A DNA stretch of 64,000 bases from Acidobacteriota bacterium (GTDB lineage: Bacteria > Acidobacteriota > Blastocatellia > Chloracidobacteriales > Chloracidobacteriaceae). The notes under the pieces were generated by a model. It saw only the letters and a program-made list of their open reading frames with translations. It was not told where the DNA came from and made no database searches. A program made the position numbers and the translations under genes. Where the stretch lies: NCBI GenBank assembly GCA_016208495.1, contig JACQXX010000076.1:4139-68138 (forward strand), given 5' to 3'. Positions 22,267-29,926 of the stretch are shown here, one piece after another. Every line of letters begins with the position of its first letter. Position 1 is the first letter of the stretch.

Positions 22267-23136
22267 CTATTCATCAAGAAAGCGCACTGGTTCACTGTTG
22301 ATATTAGCCAGTTTATTGGGTTCTCCAGAGTGTCTCATGATCCCTGATTGATCTAAAAAGTAACAATCAAATCCTCCACATAAAATGCCAGTGCGAATGC
22401 TCGGTGCCACCTGGATTTCATATCTGGCCGGAGCAGAATCTGTGGCCGGAAACATTTGAAACGAGACAATTCGATGCCCTTGATAGCCAACGGTTCCAAT
22501 TCTTGATTCCAGTTCTGTCAATCCGTTGGGGAAATGTGGTGACGTTACAAGCTGTTCAACCCGTGAGGCATAGTGTCCATGAGTTTTACAATAGGCATCC
22601 TGGGCACTTCTTATCTTCTTTACAACTCGCTCTGCAATATGAGTATTCTGAAACTGGTTTCCCCCGCAGTTCCCTGGTAATGCTATCGCTCCTAAAATCA
22701 AAAATATAAGACCTGTGATGGTTAACTCTACCGGAGAGACACGGTGAGCCTGAAAGTTCCCTCGTAAACTGGCGATTAAAGATAGAAAACCAATCGTCGC
22801 CGGAAGAACAGTAAGGGTATACCCCATGCAGATTCGAGCCACGGTGAGCCAGTCAGGGTCAATTGGAAGCTTCACCAGATAGAAATCAAGCCTGGTAACC
22901 GCGCTCAGAATGCCCGCAATCAACAGGACAATGCAGAAGTTCATTCCCATCTGTACCTTGTATAACCACTTCCAGCGTTCAACGATGTTCCTTGAATTGA
23001 ATTGGGGGCTCGTTGAATGTGGGAAATATGGGTTGAATTCCCGGCATTGCTGGCAGTGAGATGAATTTGGGCTCAGCACATCCGACTGATGGCAAATCTC
23101 GCACCTGATGGGGAGCGACTCGGCTTTTATTTTCAT
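22267..23136 (-). CDS. Zinc-ribbon membrane protein with pilin-like C-terminal domain, paralog A
   Basis: A 289-residue protein. The N-terminus has two CxxC pairs (RCEICHQSD and HCQQCREF, residues 12-37), which predict a zinc ribbon. Three to four transmembrane segments follow (about 58-165). The C-terminal domain (about 175-289) resembles the globular part of type IV pilin-like proteins: a helix with IRSAQDAYCKTHGHYA, then strands ending in YFLDQSGIMRHSGEP. There is no prepilin peptidase site. Its start overlaps the stop of the next gene by 4 bp, so the two are translationally coupled. The function is unknown; it may link cytoplasmic metal sensing to an exported domain, but that is inference. 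Confidence 0.75.
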   Translation of the reverse strand: MKIKAESLPIRCEICHQSDVLSPNSSHCQQCREFNPYFPHSTSPQFNSRNIVERWKWLYKVQMGMNFCIVLLIAGILSAVTRLDFYLVKLPIDPDWLTVARICMGYTLTVLPATIGFLSLIASLRGNFQAHRVSPVELTITGLIFLILGAIALPGNCGGNQFQNTHIAERVVKKIRSAQDAYCKTHGHYASRVEQLVTSPHFPNGLTELESRIGTVGYQGHRIVSFQMFPATDSAPARYEIQVAPSIRTGILCGGFDCYFLDQSGIMRHSGEPNKLANINSEPVRFLDE

Positions 23137-24002
23137 TGACTTATCTCTCGTGGGTTCTGGGCGGTGGCTGGCTTTTTTGGGTCTCCAGATTCGCGAATCA
23201 CTCCGCTCTGGTCCAGGTAGTATTGATGATTTCCGCCCCGAAACATCCCGGTTCGAATTTGCGGAGCCACCTTGAGTTCATACCGGGCAGGGCTCCAGGA
23301 TGTGGCTGGAAATGCTTGAAATGATTTGAGTTGATACCCGGCAAACCCAATCGTTTCAAGCGCCGCTTCACGTTCGGTTAAGGCTTTCTCAGGCTGGATG
23401 TGTGAAGTCAACCAGGCCAAAGTTGGAGCGTACTGCCCTTTTCCGGGCCCGTTTCGATAGGCTTCCTGGGCACGATGAATGTTCGTCAATGCCCGAATGA
23501 TTGCCTCCCGGTTTACCGAACGCCGGGCTGAGATTGGCCCAGGGAGCATGGTAAAAAAGATGACAGCCACCACACAACCGACAACAAACCATCCGACTTC
23601 TCTTTCTTTGAGAGATGTTGTGTCAGCCCGAATAAAAATCATTATTTTCACAAACCCGATTGAGAGTAACGTCAGGAATGCCACCAAAAACAATCGTTGC
23701 TGAAAAACTCCAATCCAGTCCAAATCAAATGACAGCGGTGGAAGCAGGTCACCAATCAACGGCAACCCAAAAAACATTCCAAAAACGGATAGATAAAAAC
23801 TGATTTTCAACCCGGAGAGCACCTTTCGAAGTCGCTTTAATCCTGGAGTTTCGGGGGCTGGTTCTGGGGCTGGCTCAGGTGACACTACAATCCGGTAGTT
23901 TATGGTGCGACATCGTTGGCAATGATTTGAAACCGGGTCGAATTCATCTGACTGATGGCAAATTTCACATCTGGTTGGGAGTGATTGAGACTTGATTTTC
24001 AT
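23133..24002 (-). CDS. Zinc-ribbon membrane protein with pilin-like C-terminal domain, paralog B
   Basis: A 289-residue paralog of the downstream gene. It shares RCEICHQSD...HCQRCR at 12-35, hydrophobic segments (about 60-155) and a C-terminal pilin-like domain (about 165-285) with IHRAQEAYRNGPGKGQYAP and YYLDQSGVIRESGDP. GAGG lies 7 bases before the start. A broken third member lies immediately upstream (24045-24215), and a shorter relative with the same zinc ribbon is at 29276-29926. Tandem duplication is likely. Confidence 0.75.
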   Translation of the reverse strand: MKIKSQSLPTRCEICHQSDEFDPVSNHCQRCRTINYRIVVSPEPAPEPAPETPGLKRLRKVLSGLKISFYLSVFGMFFGLPLIGDLLPPLSFDLDWIGVFQQRLFLVAFLTLLSIGFVKIMIFIRADTTSLKEREVGWFVVGCVVAVIFFTMLPGPISARRSVNREAIIRALTNIHRAQEAYRNGPGKGQYAPTLAWLTSHIQPEKALTEREAALETIGFAGYQLKSFQAFPATSWSPARYELKVAPQIRTGMFRGGNHQYYLDQSGVIRESGDPKKPATAQNPREISQ

Positions 24003-24044
24003 CGGCGCACCTCGCCAATTGTATGTGCTCAGGCTGAAACTACA

Positions 24045-24215
24045 TCATTCGACCGGTTCGCTCTGGGCGGTAGCCGGCTGGTGCGGGGATTCTGATCTTC
24101 GGATAACACCGGTTTGATCAATGAATAACCTGAAGCTCCCACTTTTTAACATACCCGATGGGGTTTTGGGAATGACTTCGATTTCATATTCTGGCGGAGT
24201 CCTACATTTACAGGG
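24045..24215 (-). pseudogene. 3' remnant of a third zinc-ribbon/pilin-like paralog
   Basis: On the minus strand, in frame, the sequence reads CRTPPEYEIEVIPKTPSGML, then a stretch with LFIDQTGVIRRSESP, and ends ATAQSEPVE-stop. It aligns with the C-termini of the two neighbours (YELKVAPQIRTGMF..., YYLDQSGVIRESGDP). The upstream part is missing and is replaced by dispersed repeat R3 (24229-24286) and a 14-base repeat array. No start codon or N-terminal domain remains. Confidence 0.8.
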
Positions 24216-24228
24216 AATAAACCCTGGT

Positions 24229-24286
24229 CTGGCCGTGACCGTGGGCTTCGCACCACGGCTATTACACAGCGACCCTGCGGGCCTAA
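24229..24286. repeat. Dispersed element R3, copy 1
   Basis: Matches 51244-51302 closely: CTGGCC, then CCGTGGGCTTCGCACCACGG (a hairpin), CTATT, ACA and a CCTGCGG segment. It sits at the break point of the pilin-like pseudogene. Confidence 0.8.
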
Positions 24287-24300
24287 TGGTCCATAGCCCA

Positions 24301-24350
24301 TTTTCTTCAGCCCGTTTTCTTCAGCCCGATGTCTTCAGCCCCGGTTTTCT
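24301..24350. repeat. 14-base array TTTTCTTCAGCCCG
   Basis: Three and a half units of 14 bases (twice 7), adjoining the stop codon of the anion permease gene. The same unit type is found at 2664-2700 and 63917-64000. Confidence 0.8.
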
Positions 24351-25768
24351 CACCCGAGCCCAATCAACGGCCAGTAAAACAGGCTCACCAGCACCATCAC
24401 GATTGATTCGACCACGGCAATGACGGCACCAAATTTGACAATGTCACGCGCTTCAAAATACCCGTAGGAATAGCCGATGATGACAATTGTTGATTGATAG
24501 ACAAACACTTTGCAGGCACCGGCAAAGGTCCAGATGAGTCCAATGGCCACCGGGTTTAACTGATTCGCCTGGGCAAATTTCAGGAGCGGCGTCATGGACG
24601 TGCTCAACATCGAAATTTCGCTTCCTAGAAATAGATGGTAGCCAAAGGCCGTCCAATAAGTCGTCAACACCGCACCAATTTTGGTTGTCACCAGCGGCGA
24701 CATCCATCCAAACATTACCGAGGTCATGGCGTCGGTGGCGCCGGTTTGGACCAGAACAATTCCCATGCTGGCGGCTGTACCCACAAAAAACGCCGGTAAA
24801 TAATTTACTTTCTTCAAATCATCTGATTGTAACAATCCAAAAAATGGTATGGCCGCCAGTAAACTTACTGCAATTCCGATTTTTGCAGGAGAAATATGAT
24901 GCCAGAAATCAGTAATCCACAAACTCAAGGCAATCGTGGCAAAAACGGCGGCCCAGATTTTTGGCCTGGACCAGCCTTCAATTTTTTTGAGTTCTTCCCG
25001 TAAATAAACCGCGCTTTCAACCAGACTTTCTTTCTCAGGAGGAAAGAGCCAGAGCGTCAGCCGATAACACACCCACAGCGAAATCAATGAAACCGGTAAA
25101 AAAGCCAGAAACCAGTAGCTCCAAAATACCTTCACGCCGGTTTGGGCTTCGATCATGTCACGAGCCATAATGGATGACGCCCCGGCAATCACCATTTTGT
25201 TAAATAAACTGGCACCATAGGTCAGCACGACAAAGATGCCGCGTCCGACGTTGCTTCCGGGCTTGAATCCCGTGGCCTCCATAATGCCGAGTGCAATGGC
25301 TGCTTTGATCACAACACAGGCTGGTCCGGAAGGAACCATAAACGTCAGCACAATTGAAAGCACGGTAAAGCCGAAAATCAGTCGGGAGTAGGTGTTCCCA
25401 TACTGCAACATCACCCAGTAGGCCAGATGCCGGGTCAGCCCGGATTGTGTCAACGCCGTCCCAAAAAGCACCGCGCTGTAACAAAACCAGGGTGTGGACG
25501 TCGCAAACCCGCCAAATGCTTTTGAGAATTCGACAACGTCGCACACCCAGAACAAAAAGCATCCGATGAGCCCGACCAGCGTATGCGAAAAAATTTCAGT
25601 TCCCCAGGCCGCAATCATCAAACTGGCAATCGTCAGCGCTTTTCGACCTTCGGGTGAAAGTGAAAGCGGCGAAAACCAGACCATCAGCGGAAAAACAATC
25701 ACCACGATCACCTTCCAGATTGGAAAGGTATCGTGGGTGTTTGGTGTGATTTCTTTGGGTTGTGACAT
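24350..25768 (-). CDS. Divalent anion:sodium symporter family permease (DASS/SLC13-like)
   Basis: A 472-residue inner-membrane transporter with about 11-12 hydrophobic segments. It resembles the Na/sulfate-dicarboxylate symporter family: a first half with GTALTQSGLTRHLAYW and MVPSGPACVVIKAAIALGI, and a second half with a related GTAASMGIVLVQTGATDAM segment, followed by SEISMLSTSMTPLLKFA. Substrates in the family include dicarboxylates, citrate and sulfate; which applies cannot be told. The start is ATG at 25768, since the earlier frame (to 25858) has a non-hydrophobic, poorly conserved head. No strong ribosome-binding site is visible. Confidence 0.82.
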   Translation of the reverse strand: MSQPKEITPNTHDTFPIWKVIVVIVFPLMVWFSPLSLSPEGRKALTIASLMIAAWGTEIFSHTLVGLIGCFLFWVCDVVEFSKAFGGFATSTPWFCYSAVLFGTALTQSGLTRHLAYWVMLQYGNTYSRLIFGFTVLSIVLTFMVPSGPACVVIKAAIALGIMEATGFKPGSNVGRGIFVVLTYGASLFNKMVIAGASSIMARDMIEAQTGVKVFWSYWFLAFLPVSLISLWVCYRLTLWLFPPEKESLVESAVYLREELKKIEGWSRPKIWAAVFATIALSLWITDFWHHISPAKIGIAVSLLAAIPFFGLLQSDDLKKVNYLPAFFVGTAASMGIVLVQTGATDAMTSVMFGWMSPLVTTKIGAVLTTYWTAFGYHLFLGSEISMLSTSMTPLLKFAQANQLNPVAIGLIWTFAGACKVFVYQSTIVIIGYSYGYFEARDIVKFGAVIAVVESIVMVLVSLFYWPLIGLG

Positions 25769-25891
25769 TGGACGAGAACCATTGAGGGTTCGGGGTTGCA
25801 GGGTTTTCGCCGCGTAGCGGTGGTTGAATTGAGGCAGATCGTTTACGGCCTGCAACAAGGTGACAGGTAACAGGGTGACATGGGATTTTTT

Positions 25892-25920
25892 TCATCCCTC
25901 ATCCCTCATCCTTCATCCCT
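25892..25920. repeat. Heptamer array TCATCCC/TCATCCT
   Basis: Four 7-base units preceded by GGGATTTTTTTCATCCC, a possible small hairpin. The same block, with its T-rich left flank, occurs at 40371-40404 and 57790-57829. Confidence 0.85.
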
Positions 25921-25944
25921 TGGTTTCGGCCCGGAACCCTGTTT

Positions 25945-28900
25945 TCAAAACACGAGCTTTAGCGCAAACTGCAATTCACGTGAGTTTCCCGAAGTGCTAA
26001 AGATTTTCCCGGCACTCGAAGAAGGTTGAAATGAGGCGGGAATATCGTCATCCGCTGGAATGAAGGTGTACAGGGCTTCGCCTTCCTCGGAATTGGAAGG
26101 GATGTCGAAATTGGTTCGATTCAACAAGTTAAAGAATTCGGCTCGGAATTGAAGCCGCACCCGGCGATCAGTGAAAAATTCTTTGGTCAGTGCCAGATCA
26201 AGGCTCTTGTAATTCGGTCCAGTCAAAATATTTCGGCCCGCGTTGCCTCGAACTCCCGGTTGAGGCGGCGTGAAGGCCGTCAGATTAAACCACTGCGTCG
26301 AGGTCTGACCTTTTGACGGCGTAAAGCTCACTCCTGGAACGACATCCGGACGCGAGACATTGGCATCGGTTCCATCCTGATCCTGGTCGCCAATCAACAC
26401 TGGCGAATACGGAACACCCGACTGGAGCGAAATAATAGCTGAAACCTGCCACCCATTGAGCAAATTGGAAAGCAGGGGGTTGGTGGTTGCGATCTTCGGC
26501 AGTTGATAAATCAAATTGGTGGTAAAGCTATGTCGGACATCGAAATCCGAAAGTCCACGGTCAAGTTTTCGATTGTATGGATCAAACGCCCGCGATTGAC
26601 CATTGGAAAATTCCAGCCGCCCGGCAACACCCGACCGCTCATCAATGGATTTGCCGTAGGTGTATGCCAGTTGAAAGTCTAACCCATAGCGCAACCGTTG
26701 CTGGGCATTCACACTTACGGCATGATAATGCGAGTTAAAGCCCTGGAAAATCCGGCGGACTTCCCCAAACTTCGGATTTCGCCGTTTGCTCCCCTCCGGG
26801 AAAAATTCGCGTCCATCCGGCAACCGTTGTGGAAAGGCCGTATTGACATCTCCTTGACCAAACAAATTGACCCCTCGTGACCCCAGATAGGCGACCTGGA
26901 CCACCATCCCCTTGAAGTCCTGCTGGATATTGAGGTTGTACTGCATCACATAGCTGGGTCGGAGATCATGTTGAATGGCCTCCGTTGCCAGGTCAGCACC
27001 TTTAAACGCCCCAGGATTGACCGGCAACATCGGCACCGAGGAAATCACACCCCGGTTCACAAATGGTAATGTTCGGAAGATGGCATTGCGGTACGTTTGA
27101 AACAACGGCTGGTCGTAAAACATCCCAAACCCGCTGCGAACAATGGTTTTTCCCCGTCCGGTCACATCCCAGGCCAGCCCTACCCGTGGGGCAAAGTTGT
27201 TTCGGGTCAGGGTGAAATAATCGCCGCCAACCGTCACTTCCGGATCTGAAATATCGCGCAAATTAGCAATTTTGCCGTTGACTTCTTTGGGCGTGGTAAC
27301 CGTTTCATACCGCAAACCCAGATTCAGCGTCAACCGGTCAGTCAACCGCACATTGTCTTGAAGGTAAAATCCGACCAGCGTTTGGCGCAGCCCCCGAATA
27401 AAGTCGGAATCTGCCGAAGCTCCCTGAATTTCCCGCACCTTAAAGGCGAGCAAATCCGCCAGCGACCGAAATCGTAGCTGCCCTCGCGTCCGGCTTTCAG
27501 ACTGGCCGTTGTATTGCAGTCGTGACACATTTCCGCCAACTTTGAGTGTGTGACGACCAAACGTCATGATCAAATTGTCGGTAAACTGAAAATGGTTCAA
27601 CCGAAAGATTTTCGGATTGGTCCGGTCAGTCCCGATATCGGTCAATCCGGAAACGTTGATCTCACCAAGTCCCTGTCCAGCAATCAATTGCAGCGTTCGG
27701 TCAGTCTCGGGTACAAGTTCGGACGGGGACGTGCGCACAAATCCAAACCGGGCTTCATTGAGAATCGTGGGAGAAAAAACGTGTTTTTCTTCCAGCGTGA
27801 GGTAGTGCTTGCGGTTATCGGAAAGATTTGGAAATTCGGGAAAATTGCGTGGGAGCAACTGCTGGGAATCTTCAATCGTGTACGTTCCAAACAACGAATC
27901 CCGGTCCGACAGGTTGATATCAAACCGGCTGGTCAGGAAATTCGCATCCGAAAACCGATTGGTGGTGCCGATAAATTCAGCCGTTCCACGACTGAGTTGA
28001 GTGCCATTGGCCTGCGGGTATAAATCCAGAATCGGCACCGCTCGTGGGTCAATCGAAATCGGATTTGCTCCGGGCAGAATTCCCATCCGGGCGCTGGCAT
28101 CAGGCACAATCGCAATCCGGGTAATGCCTTTTCGTTCGCGAAGGGCTTCGAAATTGGCAAAGAAAAAAGCTTTATTTTTGACAATCGGCCCCCCGACCGC
28201 TGCGCCAAACTGGTTGCGGCGAAACGCCGGTTTTTCTTTATCGAAGAAATTGCGGGCGTCAAAAATGTCGTTGCGGAGAAATTCAAACACCGAGCCGTGA
28301 AAGTCATTGCTTCCGGATTTGGTCACTGCGAGGAATACACCGCCCGCCGCCCGGCTGTATTCCGCGCCATAATTGTTGACCAGGACGCGAAATTCTTTCA
28401 CGGCTTCGACCCCGATGAGCAGGCCCTGAGCACTTCCGGGGGTGTTGTTGAGTGCATCGTTGATGACCGTGCCATCGAGGGTAAACACATTTTGGGTTGG
28501 ACGAGCACCAGAAACTGAAAACCGTGCCCCCTGACCCGTGCTGCCTGACTGCACGCTCGCCCGACTGTTGACCACTCCGGGTTGCAGCAAAATCAGTTGG
28601 GTCAAATCACGACCATTGAGCGGAAGGGCCGGCACCTGACGATCAGTGACCAGACCGCTGATGGTTGAAGTGGAAACTTCGATCAGCGATGGCTCACCGG
28701 TGATCGTGACGACTTCCTGAACCGGTATCACCTTTAAAATCAAGTGAATACTTTTTTCTTCCGCCACCGAGGTAACCAGTTCATCGAGCCGGGCTTCGGT
28801 AAACCCGGATTTCTCAGCCTGAACCGAATACCTTCCGGGAGGCAATCCAAAGATCGAAAACGATCCATCATCCGCACTGACTGTCTTGCGGGTTAGACCA

Positions 28901-29061
28901 GTTTCCAGGTTTTTCACAGTTAAAGCGGTTTGGGACACCGGGTGATGTGACTCATCCCGAACCGTGCCGGTAATGGCCGAACTGGTGACCTGGGCCGTGG
29001 CTGGCACAATACAAAACCACAGGCAAAGGCAGGCACTGAGCAGAAATTTGATGTGTGTCAT
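25945..29061 (-). CDS. TonB-dependent outer-membrane receptor, Oar-like, with carboxypeptidase-regulatory domain
   Basis: A 1038-residue outer-membrane protein. The signal peptide is 1-23. A carboxypeptidase-regulatory-like beta sandwich (about 27-115: ITGTVRDESHHPVSQTALTV, GSFSIFGLPPGRYSV) precedes the plug domain (about 120-245, with LPLNGRDLTQLILLQPGV) and a 22-strand-type barrel ending in FALKLVF with a terminal aromatic residue. This is the layout of the large Acidobacteria receptor family thought to import glycans or peptides. No partner genes for a specific substrate adjoin it. GGAG lies about 11 bases before the start. Confidence 0.9.
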   Translation of the reverse strand: MTHIKFLLSACLCLWFCIVPATAQVTSSAITGTVRDESHHPVSQTALTVKNLETGLTRKTVSADDGSFSIFGLPPGRYSVQAEKSGFTEARLDELVTSVAEEKSIHLILKVIPVQEVVTITGEPSLIEVSTSTISGLVTDRQVPALPLNGRDLTQLILLQPGVVNSRASVQSGSTGQGARFSVSGARPTQNVFTLDGTVINDALNNTPGSAQGLLIGVEAVKEFRVLVNNYGAEYSRAAGGVFLAVTKSGSNDFHGSVFEFLRNDIFDARNFFDKEKPAFRRNQFGAAVGGPIVKNKAFFFANFEALRERKGITRIAIVPDASARMGILPGANPISIDPRAVPILDLYPQANGTQLSRGTAEFIGTTNRFSDANFLTSRFDINLSDRDSLFGTYTIEDSQQLLPRNFPEFPNLSDNRKHYLTLEEKHVFSPTILNEARFGFVRTSPSELVPETDRTLQLIAGQGLGEINVSGLTDIGTDRTNPKIFRLNHFQFTDNLIMTFGRHTLKVGGNVSRLQYNGQSESRTRGQLRFRSLADLLAFKVREIQGASADSDFIRGLRQTLVGFYLQDNVRLTDRLTLNLGLRYETVTTPKEVNGKIANLRDISDPEVTVGGDYFTLTRNNFAPRVGLAWDVTGRGKTIVRSGFGMFYDQPLFQTYRNAIFRTLPFVNRGVISSVPMLPVNPGAFKGADLATEAIQHDLRPSYVMQYNLNIQQDFKGMVVQVAYLGSRGVNLFGQGDVNTAFPQRLPDGREFFPEGSKRRNPKFGEVRRIFQGFNSHYHAVSVNAQQRLRYGLDFQLAYTYGKSIDERSGVAGRLEFSNGQSRAFDPYNRKLDRGLSDFDVRHSFTTNLIYQLPKIATTNPLLSNLLNGWQVSAIISLQSGVPYSPVLIGDQDQDGTDANVSRPDVVPGVSFTPSKGQTSTQWFNLTAFTPPQPGVRGNAGRNILTGPNYKSLDLALTKEFFTDRRVRLQFRAEFFNLLNRTNFDIPSNSEEGEALYTFIPADDDIPASFQPSSSAGKIFSTSGNSRELQFALKLVF

Positions 29062-29275
29062 AGAGAGAATAGCTCCTGACTGGCATCAGGAGGGGCATCG
29101 AGAGAATTTTTGAGGTGTTGGCTGCGCAATCTAGTGGAAAGAAGCTGGAAATGCCAGACAGAAATTGAGTTTTCAGAAGAAGAAACCACGGAATACACAG
29201 AACACACAGAAAATAAATCCAAATATAGATCAGGAAAATATTGACTGAGAAACGATAGCTTTGAAAACACGCCAA

Positions 29276-29926
29276 TCAGGAAGCTGGTCGCGGGTAACCT
29301 GGATTCACCGGCCAGTGGCAGACACTTGAGCAGACCAGTTTTTGATTCTCATCAAAATAGAATCGCATGACGATAATCCAGTGATGGAGGTAATTGCGGC
29401 CTGTAATCGGCGTCCAGGCGGTGATTTTCTGCTTGATATTTGTCTCAATCATTAGACAGTGGGACTCTTTGAGGTCCTGGCTTCGATTTTCGGTACAAAA
29501 AACATCGTCGGCAGTAATTGGCTTGAGTGGATCGTGCTGGAGGGTTCGAGTTTCTAAAAAATTCAGCACTTGAGAAACGTCCGATGTCCCTGGTGTCAGA
29601 TTTTTATTGATCTGTTCAGTTAGTAAATCAACCGTCAGGGGGCGAGCCGGGTCAATTTCCTTGACGATTGGAGGTGGCTGTTTTTCAAACGACCGAATCC
29701 AGGATAGCCACAGGGTAATTGCACCAGCGCCCAGTGACACAATCACCGTCACCGCCAATCCAACCCCGGCAACTATTTTCCACACTACCACCTGTGAAGC
29801 TGGTCGGTGGCGCTCAACCACGCCCTGACATCGCGTGCAGTGAATCGCAACCGGATCAAATTGATCTGATTGGTGGCAAATTTCGCACCGTGTCGGCTGT
29901 TTTTCGGCTTTGAGAAGAAATGCCAT
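29276..29926 (-). CDS. Zinc-ribbon single-pass membrane protein
   Basis: A 216-residue protein. The N-terminal double CxxC (RCEICHQSDQFDP...HCTRC, about 13-34) is nearly the same as in the proteins at 22267-24002. One transmembrane segment (about 46-72) follows. The C-terminal domain (about 80-216) is unrelated to the pilin-like domain and I do not recognise it; its NYLHHWIIVMRFYFDENQKL strand pair looks extracytoplasmic. GAGG lies 7 bases before the start. It begins 9 bp after the stop of the ADP-ribosylglycohydrolase gene, so both are likely one transcript. Confidence 0.7.
   Translation of the reverse strand: MAFLLKAEKQPTRCEICHQSDQFDPVAIHCTRCQGVVERHRPASQVVVWKIVAGVGLAVTVIVSLGAGAITLWLSWIRSFEKQPPPIVKEIDPARPLTVDLLTEQINKNLTPGTSDVSQVLNFLETRTLQHDPLKPITADDVFCTENRSQDLKESHCLMIETNIKQKITAWTPITGRNYLHHWIIVMRFYFDENQKLVCSSVCHWPVNPGYPRPAS

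Follow-up and report, generated by a model that had tools for sequence, protein, structure and literature searches.

Conjugation systems based on ubiquitin-like proteins (Ubl) are already known in bacteria from the Bil and Bub operons, and RING-type E3 components have been reported from prokaryotic Ubl operons, including those of conflict systems (PMC7159879, accessible part). In Caldiarchaeum subterraneum, an operon couples ubiquitin, E1 and E2 with a small zinc-binding E3, needed for substrate modification in vitro, and the tail following the GG of the pro-ubiquitin is trimmed by its JAB peptidase (PMC5654768, accessible part). As far as the accessible parts of this literature go, bacterial Ubl systems are single operons. 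We describe here a family of proteins sharing a small zinc ribbon, the CHQ ribbon, three members of which are encoded in the window, i.e. the whole stretch of 64,000 nucleotides from contig JACQXX010000076.1 of an Acidobacteriota bacterium. The family is specific to the order containing Chloracidobacterium, and joins a constant cytosolic ribbon to a changing membrane or outer part. Since one copy always adjoins the genes of a Ubl system, the ribbon tags may bring that system to the cell membrane, as its route to it. Our preferred reading, tentative as it is, takes the ribbon as the cytosolic docking handle of the order's Ubl system, and the family as a membrane-anchored repertoire of E3-like proteins or receptors.

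The system of the order shares with the Caldiarchaeum operon a ubiquitin-like protein with C-terminal GG (in some cases tailed), E1, E2, a JAB (in Caldiarchaeum of the Rpn11 type) and a small zinc-binding protein (PMC5654768, accessible part); the zinc protein of Caldiarchaeum is a cross-brace RING, whereas that of the order is a membrane-anchored four-cysteine ribbon, found on dozens of proteins. Bil and Bub likewise comprise a Ubl, an E1-like and an E2-like protein and a JAB (Bil, PMC11354881; Bub, named in PMC13373217; accessible parts), while the order's Ubl is single-domain, universal and highly constant, and lies beside a ribbon membrane protein. Prok-RING_1 proteins also bind zinc, are encoded together with a Ubl and are considered to be E3 (PMC7159879, accessible part), an example being genome G121 of the same class, where E1, E2, Ubl, JAB and a Prok-RING_1-like gene lie in one stretch (L312). 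They are of RING or treble clef type, with more ligands than the four cysteines of the CHQ ribbon, and Pfam models of this kind do not match the ribbon. The Npl4 zinc finger (NZF) is described, in the part of the literature available, as a small zinc finger binding ubiquitin chains. It has about 30 residues, one zinc and two CxxC pairs, with 10 residues between the pairs; the CHQ ribbon has 12 and no Pfam match, so the comparison concerns only how the two might work. The new elements are the ribbon family, the constant position of a copy next to the Ubl gene, the expansion of the family and its cassette behaviour. No report on the Ubl system of this order was found among open-licence papers on Chloracidobacterium or Blastocatellia with ubiquitin, and the word 'ubiquitin' is absent from the first 300,000 characters of PMC7203096.

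The ribbon genes of the window, and a remnant, are the following:

22267-23136, minus strand: second ribbon protein, 289 amino acids, laid out as the protein of 23133-24002, whose gene it overlaps by 4 bases
22270-22674, minus strand: pilin-like domain of the 22267-23136 protein, by alignment to the modelled 23133-24002 copy
23032-23136, minus strand: CHQ zinc ribbon module of the 22267-23136 protein, by profile match
23133-24002, minus strand: ribbon protein, 289 amino acids, with N-terminal CHQ zinc ribbon, three predicted membrane helices and C-terminal pilin-like domain
23136-23540, minus strand: pilin-like domain of the 23133-24002 protein, residues ~155-289, a long helix and a four-strand sheet, from the structural model
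23898-24002, minus strand: CHQ zinc ribbon module (first 35 codons) of the 23133-24002 protein, by profile match
24045-24215 (about), minus strand: remnant, last ~55 residues of a pilin-like domain, ribbon gone
29276-29926, minus strand: third ribbon protein, 216 amino acids, with ribbon, one membrane helix and an unrelated C-terminal domain without Pfam match
29816-29920, minus strand: CHQ zinc ribbon module of the 29276-29926 protein, by profile match

The original prediction, in which a zinc ribbon was common to three intact proteins and the remnant, is borne out for the intact genes; the remnant retains the pilin end only, and no ribbon was found in any of the three frames read, so that the ribbon assigned to it was not right. 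On the whole that observation is partly confirmed, and there turned out to be more to it: the family has expanded hugely and spans the order, its ribbon recombines as a DNA cassette, and each genome of the order has one copy next to the Ubl gene. The family is defined here by the pattern C-x2-C-H-Q-x10-C-x2-C, with a fixed 12 residues between the cysteine pairs. In the window's genome (8.4 Mb, 177 contigs), one ribbon protein gave 59 matches at E<=1, most of them covering the ribbon end only. A search with a degenerate DNA motif, allowing <=2 mismatches, found 46 places, versus 1 for a reversed control pattern, which shows that the pattern is not due to chance. With a 35-column profile made from 45 ribbons, the same genome yielded 45 matches at E<=4.3e-13, plus one at 4.6e-4 and one at 0.0037, the latter probably a chance match; the three ribbons of the window, themselves rows of the profile, scored 7.9e-19, 3.7e-16 and 1.3e-17. 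The family is thus not confined to the locus where it was noticed.

Six columns are invariant in these 45 ribbons, namely the four cysteines and the H and Q which follow the second of them. From all the loci fetched, 158 non-redundant members were compiled, 45 of them from the window's genome, not counting L086:5898-6299, a member from that genome whose ribbon is divergent. All 158 keep the 12-residue spacing. The search pattern behind this set itself requires some conserved residues, and the invariance of R11 and D19 in the alignment of locus modules is partly forced by the pattern RC[ED][IV]CHQxD; the column count over the 45 ribbons is freer of such bias. The ribbon has only four cysteines as predicted zinc ligands, with one constant histidine next to the second.

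The ribbon is N-terminal in 142 of the 158 members, C-terminal in 11 and short or otherwise placed in 5; a second count gives 12 members with >=45 residues before the first cysteine, including L197, an artefact of the open-frame start. By a simple hydropathy rule, 144 members have one or more membrane helices and 14 have none. The original prediction of a constant N-terminal ribbon with changing ends agrees well with the diversity of the fusions: the 154 tails of >=30 residues, clustered by blastp at 1e-4, fell into 94 clusters, 78 of which hold one member. Most tails are short membrane segments of 2-3 helices, while pilin-like tails and long multi-helix tails recur among the members by sequence comparison. 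The Pfam census covered 108 of 147 listed members out of the 158: ankyrin repeats occur in 9, each other family is found in a single member, and each zinc-ribbon or zinc-finger model matches at most one at E<=0.001. The three window proteins match no family at E<=1, including the tail of 29276-29926, which had rightly been called an unrelated domain. The CHQ-ribbon family has no Pfam model of its own. In one protein, L083:2825-5251, the ribbon is combined with one helix, a pilin-like domain and ankyrin repeats, an arrangement by which the repeats would sit outside the cytosol.

The side of the membrane on which the ribbon lies was evaluated from the charges flanking the first helix, in the 136 members with N-terminal ribbon and predicted helix. 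Lys/Arg are more frequent before than after this helix in 89 members and less frequent in 22 (binomial p 1e-10), which places the ribbon in the cytosol, the side on which Ubl enzymes would work. A docking module, as originally suggested, fits this arrangement. That it should serve exported domains is supported in part: behind a cytosolic ribbon and three or one helices, the pilin domain would be outside, but most tails are the short membrane segments mentioned above. Among pilin-like members, L144:7738-8439 is an exception, having no helix by the hydropathy rule.

By profile, the ribbon is present throughout the order, with only one weak match beyond it. In a survey of the class (162 genomes, E<=0.001), 15 genomes matched: all 14 of the window's order, and G100, outside the order, with a weak match of 2.4e-5 to a divergent ribbon. 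In a sample of 396 genomes from the phylum, 7 matched, all from the same order. When 84,980 species were scanned for RC[ED][IV]CHQxD, 109 stretches were found, of which 96 were relatives and 80, in 79 loci, were kept; the records are filed under Blastocatellia, Acidobacteria or Chloracidobacterium, apart from one bin filed under Actinomycetota whose scaffolds are named 'Acidobacteria'. Copies range from 2 to about 46 per genome in the order, and their number rises with genome size (Spearman 0.84, n=14).

Between the E1-like and Ubl genes, each genome of the order encodes a one-helix protein of about 100 amino acids, with the ribbon at its C-terminus. Its gene stops 15-93 bases before the Ubl start, on the same strand, in 14/14 genomes, and is preceded by the E1-like gene (ThiF family) in 13 of them; in G008 the contig ends first. 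When the operon copies were left out of the profile, it nevertheless recovered 8 operon ribbons, in 7 genomes, at 1e-11 to 1e-16, with no match to E1, E2 or JAB. The E1-like proteins L073:6675-7946, L135:4644-5915 and L137:4241-5431 have a CxxC...CxxC of their own near the C-terminus; a relationship of the ribbon to this pair was considered and rejected, as nothing is found by the profile.

Each of the 14 genomes has a single Ubl, with 78-100% identity to the query; outside the order, in the 162 genomes of the class, it is found in G024 only (29% identity). In an alignment of 11 of the 14 sequences, 50 of 81 columns are invariant, and all 11 show TRGG at the domain end (...FLNTRGG), which is the protein terminus in some genomes and is followed by a short tail in others. 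Compared with the PDB, the 60 best rows are, except for T4 RegA, chains of ubiquitin, NEDD8, RUB1 or other ubiquitin domains, most with GG in register; against the Pfam Rad60-SLD cut-off of 23.8, the G013 protein passes (29.7) and that of G000 falls below (19.5). The E2-like gene is also found once per genome in 14/14 (65-99% identity to the G013 query) and, beyond the order, in G024 and G121. Its active-site cysteine is kept in an alignment of 15 of the 16 matches, and its 44 PDB matches, the best at 6.6e-6, are all E2 enzymes or UBC-type chains; it stays below the Pfam UQ_con cut-off (20.1 and 21.1 vs 27). JAB exceeds the Pfam cut-offs and is present once per genome in 14/14, as well as in five other genomes. 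The E1 matches the PADLOC E1-E2 and BilD models; for Ubl and ribbon, the PADLOC models gave nothing at E<=0.01. Judged from these sequence features, the linked genes appear to encode a bacterial Ubl conjugation system, with a Ubl ending in GG, E1, E2 with its cysteine, and JAB. Ubl, E2 and JAB are consecutive in G010 and G011, and E2 and JAB form a separate pair in G000, G008 and G009; in G013, the E2-like gene overlaps at its end with a gene for an RtcB ligase (L137:6938-8398). In G024, from another family of the class, E1-like, Ubl, E2-like and JAB genes lie in a row without a ribbon gene (L296:168-3216).

The copy beside the Ubl in every genome points to a specific docking partner. In the reading preferred here, the ribbon would be the Ubl-contacting part of the small operon membrane protein, and this part would have been copied onto many membrane proteins. 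It would bind one component of the Ubl system, i.e. the E2-like enzyme, the Ubl or E1, and each family member would bring Ubl conjugation or recognition to the membrane, the variable part setting where, or in response to what, as eukaryotic E3 ligases and ubiquitin receptors do. New members would arise by copying or swapping of the start-of-gene ribbon cassette to further genes, for the most part in tandem arrays. In the stronger form, which we hold with less assurance, a zinc-ribbon adaptor of the Ubl cascade might have been cassette-copied onto some 45 different membrane proteins of one genome, providing the order with its own membrane repertoire of E3-like proteins or ubiquitin receptors. 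A single modifier would thereby receive many inputs facing the membrane, a parallel to the E3 families of eukaryotes. If true, a clade with a universal and constant Ubl tied to many tagged membrane proteins would represent a genome-scale bacterial Ubl network, and the question 'can bacteria evolve E3-like diversity?' would become directly testable.

Several points weigh against the docking handle. Binding of the ribbon to E2, E1 or Ubl is inferred from gene neighbourhood and distribution, and Ubl conjugation itself is predicted. The chief weakness is that the link is one of gene order within one clade, with most members far from Ubl genes: the other ~44 ribbon genes of the window's genome are not near the Ubl gene, and, both Ubl system and ribbon sharing one clade, their co-occurrence alone counts as one event. 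In G024, no ribbon gene was seen between E1 and Ubl, so that some systems of this kind can do without it. No Pfam domain of the ubiquitin system was matched among the 108 members scanned. The ribbon has one predicted zinc site where a RING has two, and shows neither the eight ligands nor the cross-brace and two zinc ions of the latter. Finally, a ribbon model built from 93 of the 98 locus modules and 3 window modules retrieved no PDB chain at Z>=2, a negative to which the small size of the module gives little weight.

The same location and constancy of the ribbon would be expected if it docked membrane proteins to some other common cytosolic partner, such as a small GTPase or a scaffold, the protein of the Ubl operon being one more client. 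The zinc ribbon of Myxococcus GltJ is said to bind MglA; a literature search on GltJ/MglA gave no zinc-ribbon paper. The distance of most members from the Ubl gene agrees with such a partner, and in the low-copy genus the second ribbon gene, for a membrane protein of 204 amino acids, adjoins a gene whose product looks, by eye, of HD type, and not Ubl genes. We consider this explanation rather unlikely, because a ribbon gene directly precedes the Ubl in 14/14 genomes and because this same genus, which has the lowest number of copies (2), keeps the Ubl-adjacent ribbon as one of them.

More doubtful is that the ribbon marks substrates, i.e. that it is a recognition signal on members to which the Ubl is attached or from which it is removed, and not part of a ligase or receptor. 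The constant link to the Ubl gene and the expansion of the tagged membrane proteins would fit equally, but no lysine of the ribbon is invariant, position 4 being K in the majority of members and another residue elsewhere, and a dedicated small protein between E1 and Ubl would be an odd place for a mere substrate.

The origin of the members is reflected in their DNA. In most of 12 profiled pairs of tandem neighbours, a near-identical stretch of DNA begins at about the start codon, stops at the last cysteine and is flanked by dissimilar sequence; L007/L008 and L059 are exceptions, staying alike further into the tail. Divergence was measured at fourfold sites of identical residues. The 37 within-array pairs differ at 108 of 328 sites in the ribbon (33%) versus 433 of 663 in the tail, the corresponding values for 400 random pairs of the same genome being 61% and 71%; with random ribbons at 61% and array neighbours at 33%, codon constraint is not supported as an explanation for the conservation of the ribbon DNA. 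With a single neighbour pair per array (15 arrays), the differences are 54/148 in the ribbon vs 222/341 in the tail (Fisher 6e-9), the tail figure being inflated by chance matches counted as 'identical residues' where tails are very divergent; the ribbon is the less diverged part in 13 arrays, and two go the opposite way. The contrast persists (5/26 vs 52/98, Fisher 0.002) in three pairs with tail identity of 41-57%, which were chosen for alignment quality after the table was known and two of which share a gene. The clearest array is L070, where the first and third genes show 0/11 differences in the ribbon and 14/21 in the tail, while the window pair is an older duplicate (4/6 and 34/49). Ribbon DNA is thus younger than the tail behind it, and has therefore been copied or swapped as a cassette, by gene conversion or end-swapping. 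Exchange of ribbon cassettes in tandem arrays is clear at the DNA level, and the family matters also as a case of such domain exchange outside Pfam. In L071, L076 and L079, ribbon genes lie within ~1 kb of contig ends, as if arrays broke the assembly.

An ordinary expanded paralog family without common partner, in which the ribbon is kept only because so small a zinc fold can change little, and in which neighbours are homogenised by unequal crossing-over, would account for the many tandem arrays and for the copy number tracking genome size, but is the least probable explanation, given the constant cysteine spacing, the non-ligand H and Q (and nearly D and R), which vary about as little as the cysteines do, and the occurrence of the ribbon on unrelated tails, sometimes at the C-terminus.

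The original prediction also described two of the intact proteins and the remnant as ending in a pilin-like domain without prepilin processing site, and this is supported. The proteins of 22267-23136 and 23133-24002 have this end in common, with 37% identity along residues 1-281 of the query. The latter, 289 amino acids long, was modelled with AlphaFold2 from a seven-sequence alignment, with a mean pLDDT of 70.8 and values mostly >75 in the region of the pilin helix and sheet. The model shows the long N-terminal helix packed on an antiparallel sheet which is typical of type IV pilins. When aligned by VIA-align, the six best rows were type IV pilins or minor pilins (Z 8.3-7.2, 87-140 aligned residues, rmsd 2.3-7.8, the highest for 5hz7), mostly over model residues ~157-289; unrelated helical rows begin at Z 6.9. 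Foldseek alone placed the minor pilin PilV first, with a non-significant E of 0.18, and a profile search of the PDB reached pilins at E 0.006-0.018, along the pilin helix. The relative L163 has, read by eye, a clear pilin-type helix after the ribbon, while Pfam pilin models gave no match at E<=1 to three relatives. The model supports a pilin fold for this type of end. With this fold found, and with the family extending beyond its locus, neither of the two conditions under which the original prediction would have failed holds.

The two window proteins share helix and sheet with type IV and minor pilins, but their domain follows the ribbon and two other helices, the pilin helix starting near residue 130-156, and no prepilin peptidase site (short leader, Gly|Phe-like, Glu at +5) is seen by eye. 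By this predicted layout, the pilin-like ribbon proteins are not pilus subunits. In the window's genome, the pilin-like domain, ribbon excluded, also matches L011, L012, L013, L022 and L035, at E 1.9e-17 to 5e-8; three of these five ribbon-free matches lie in open frames of 773-888 amino acids.

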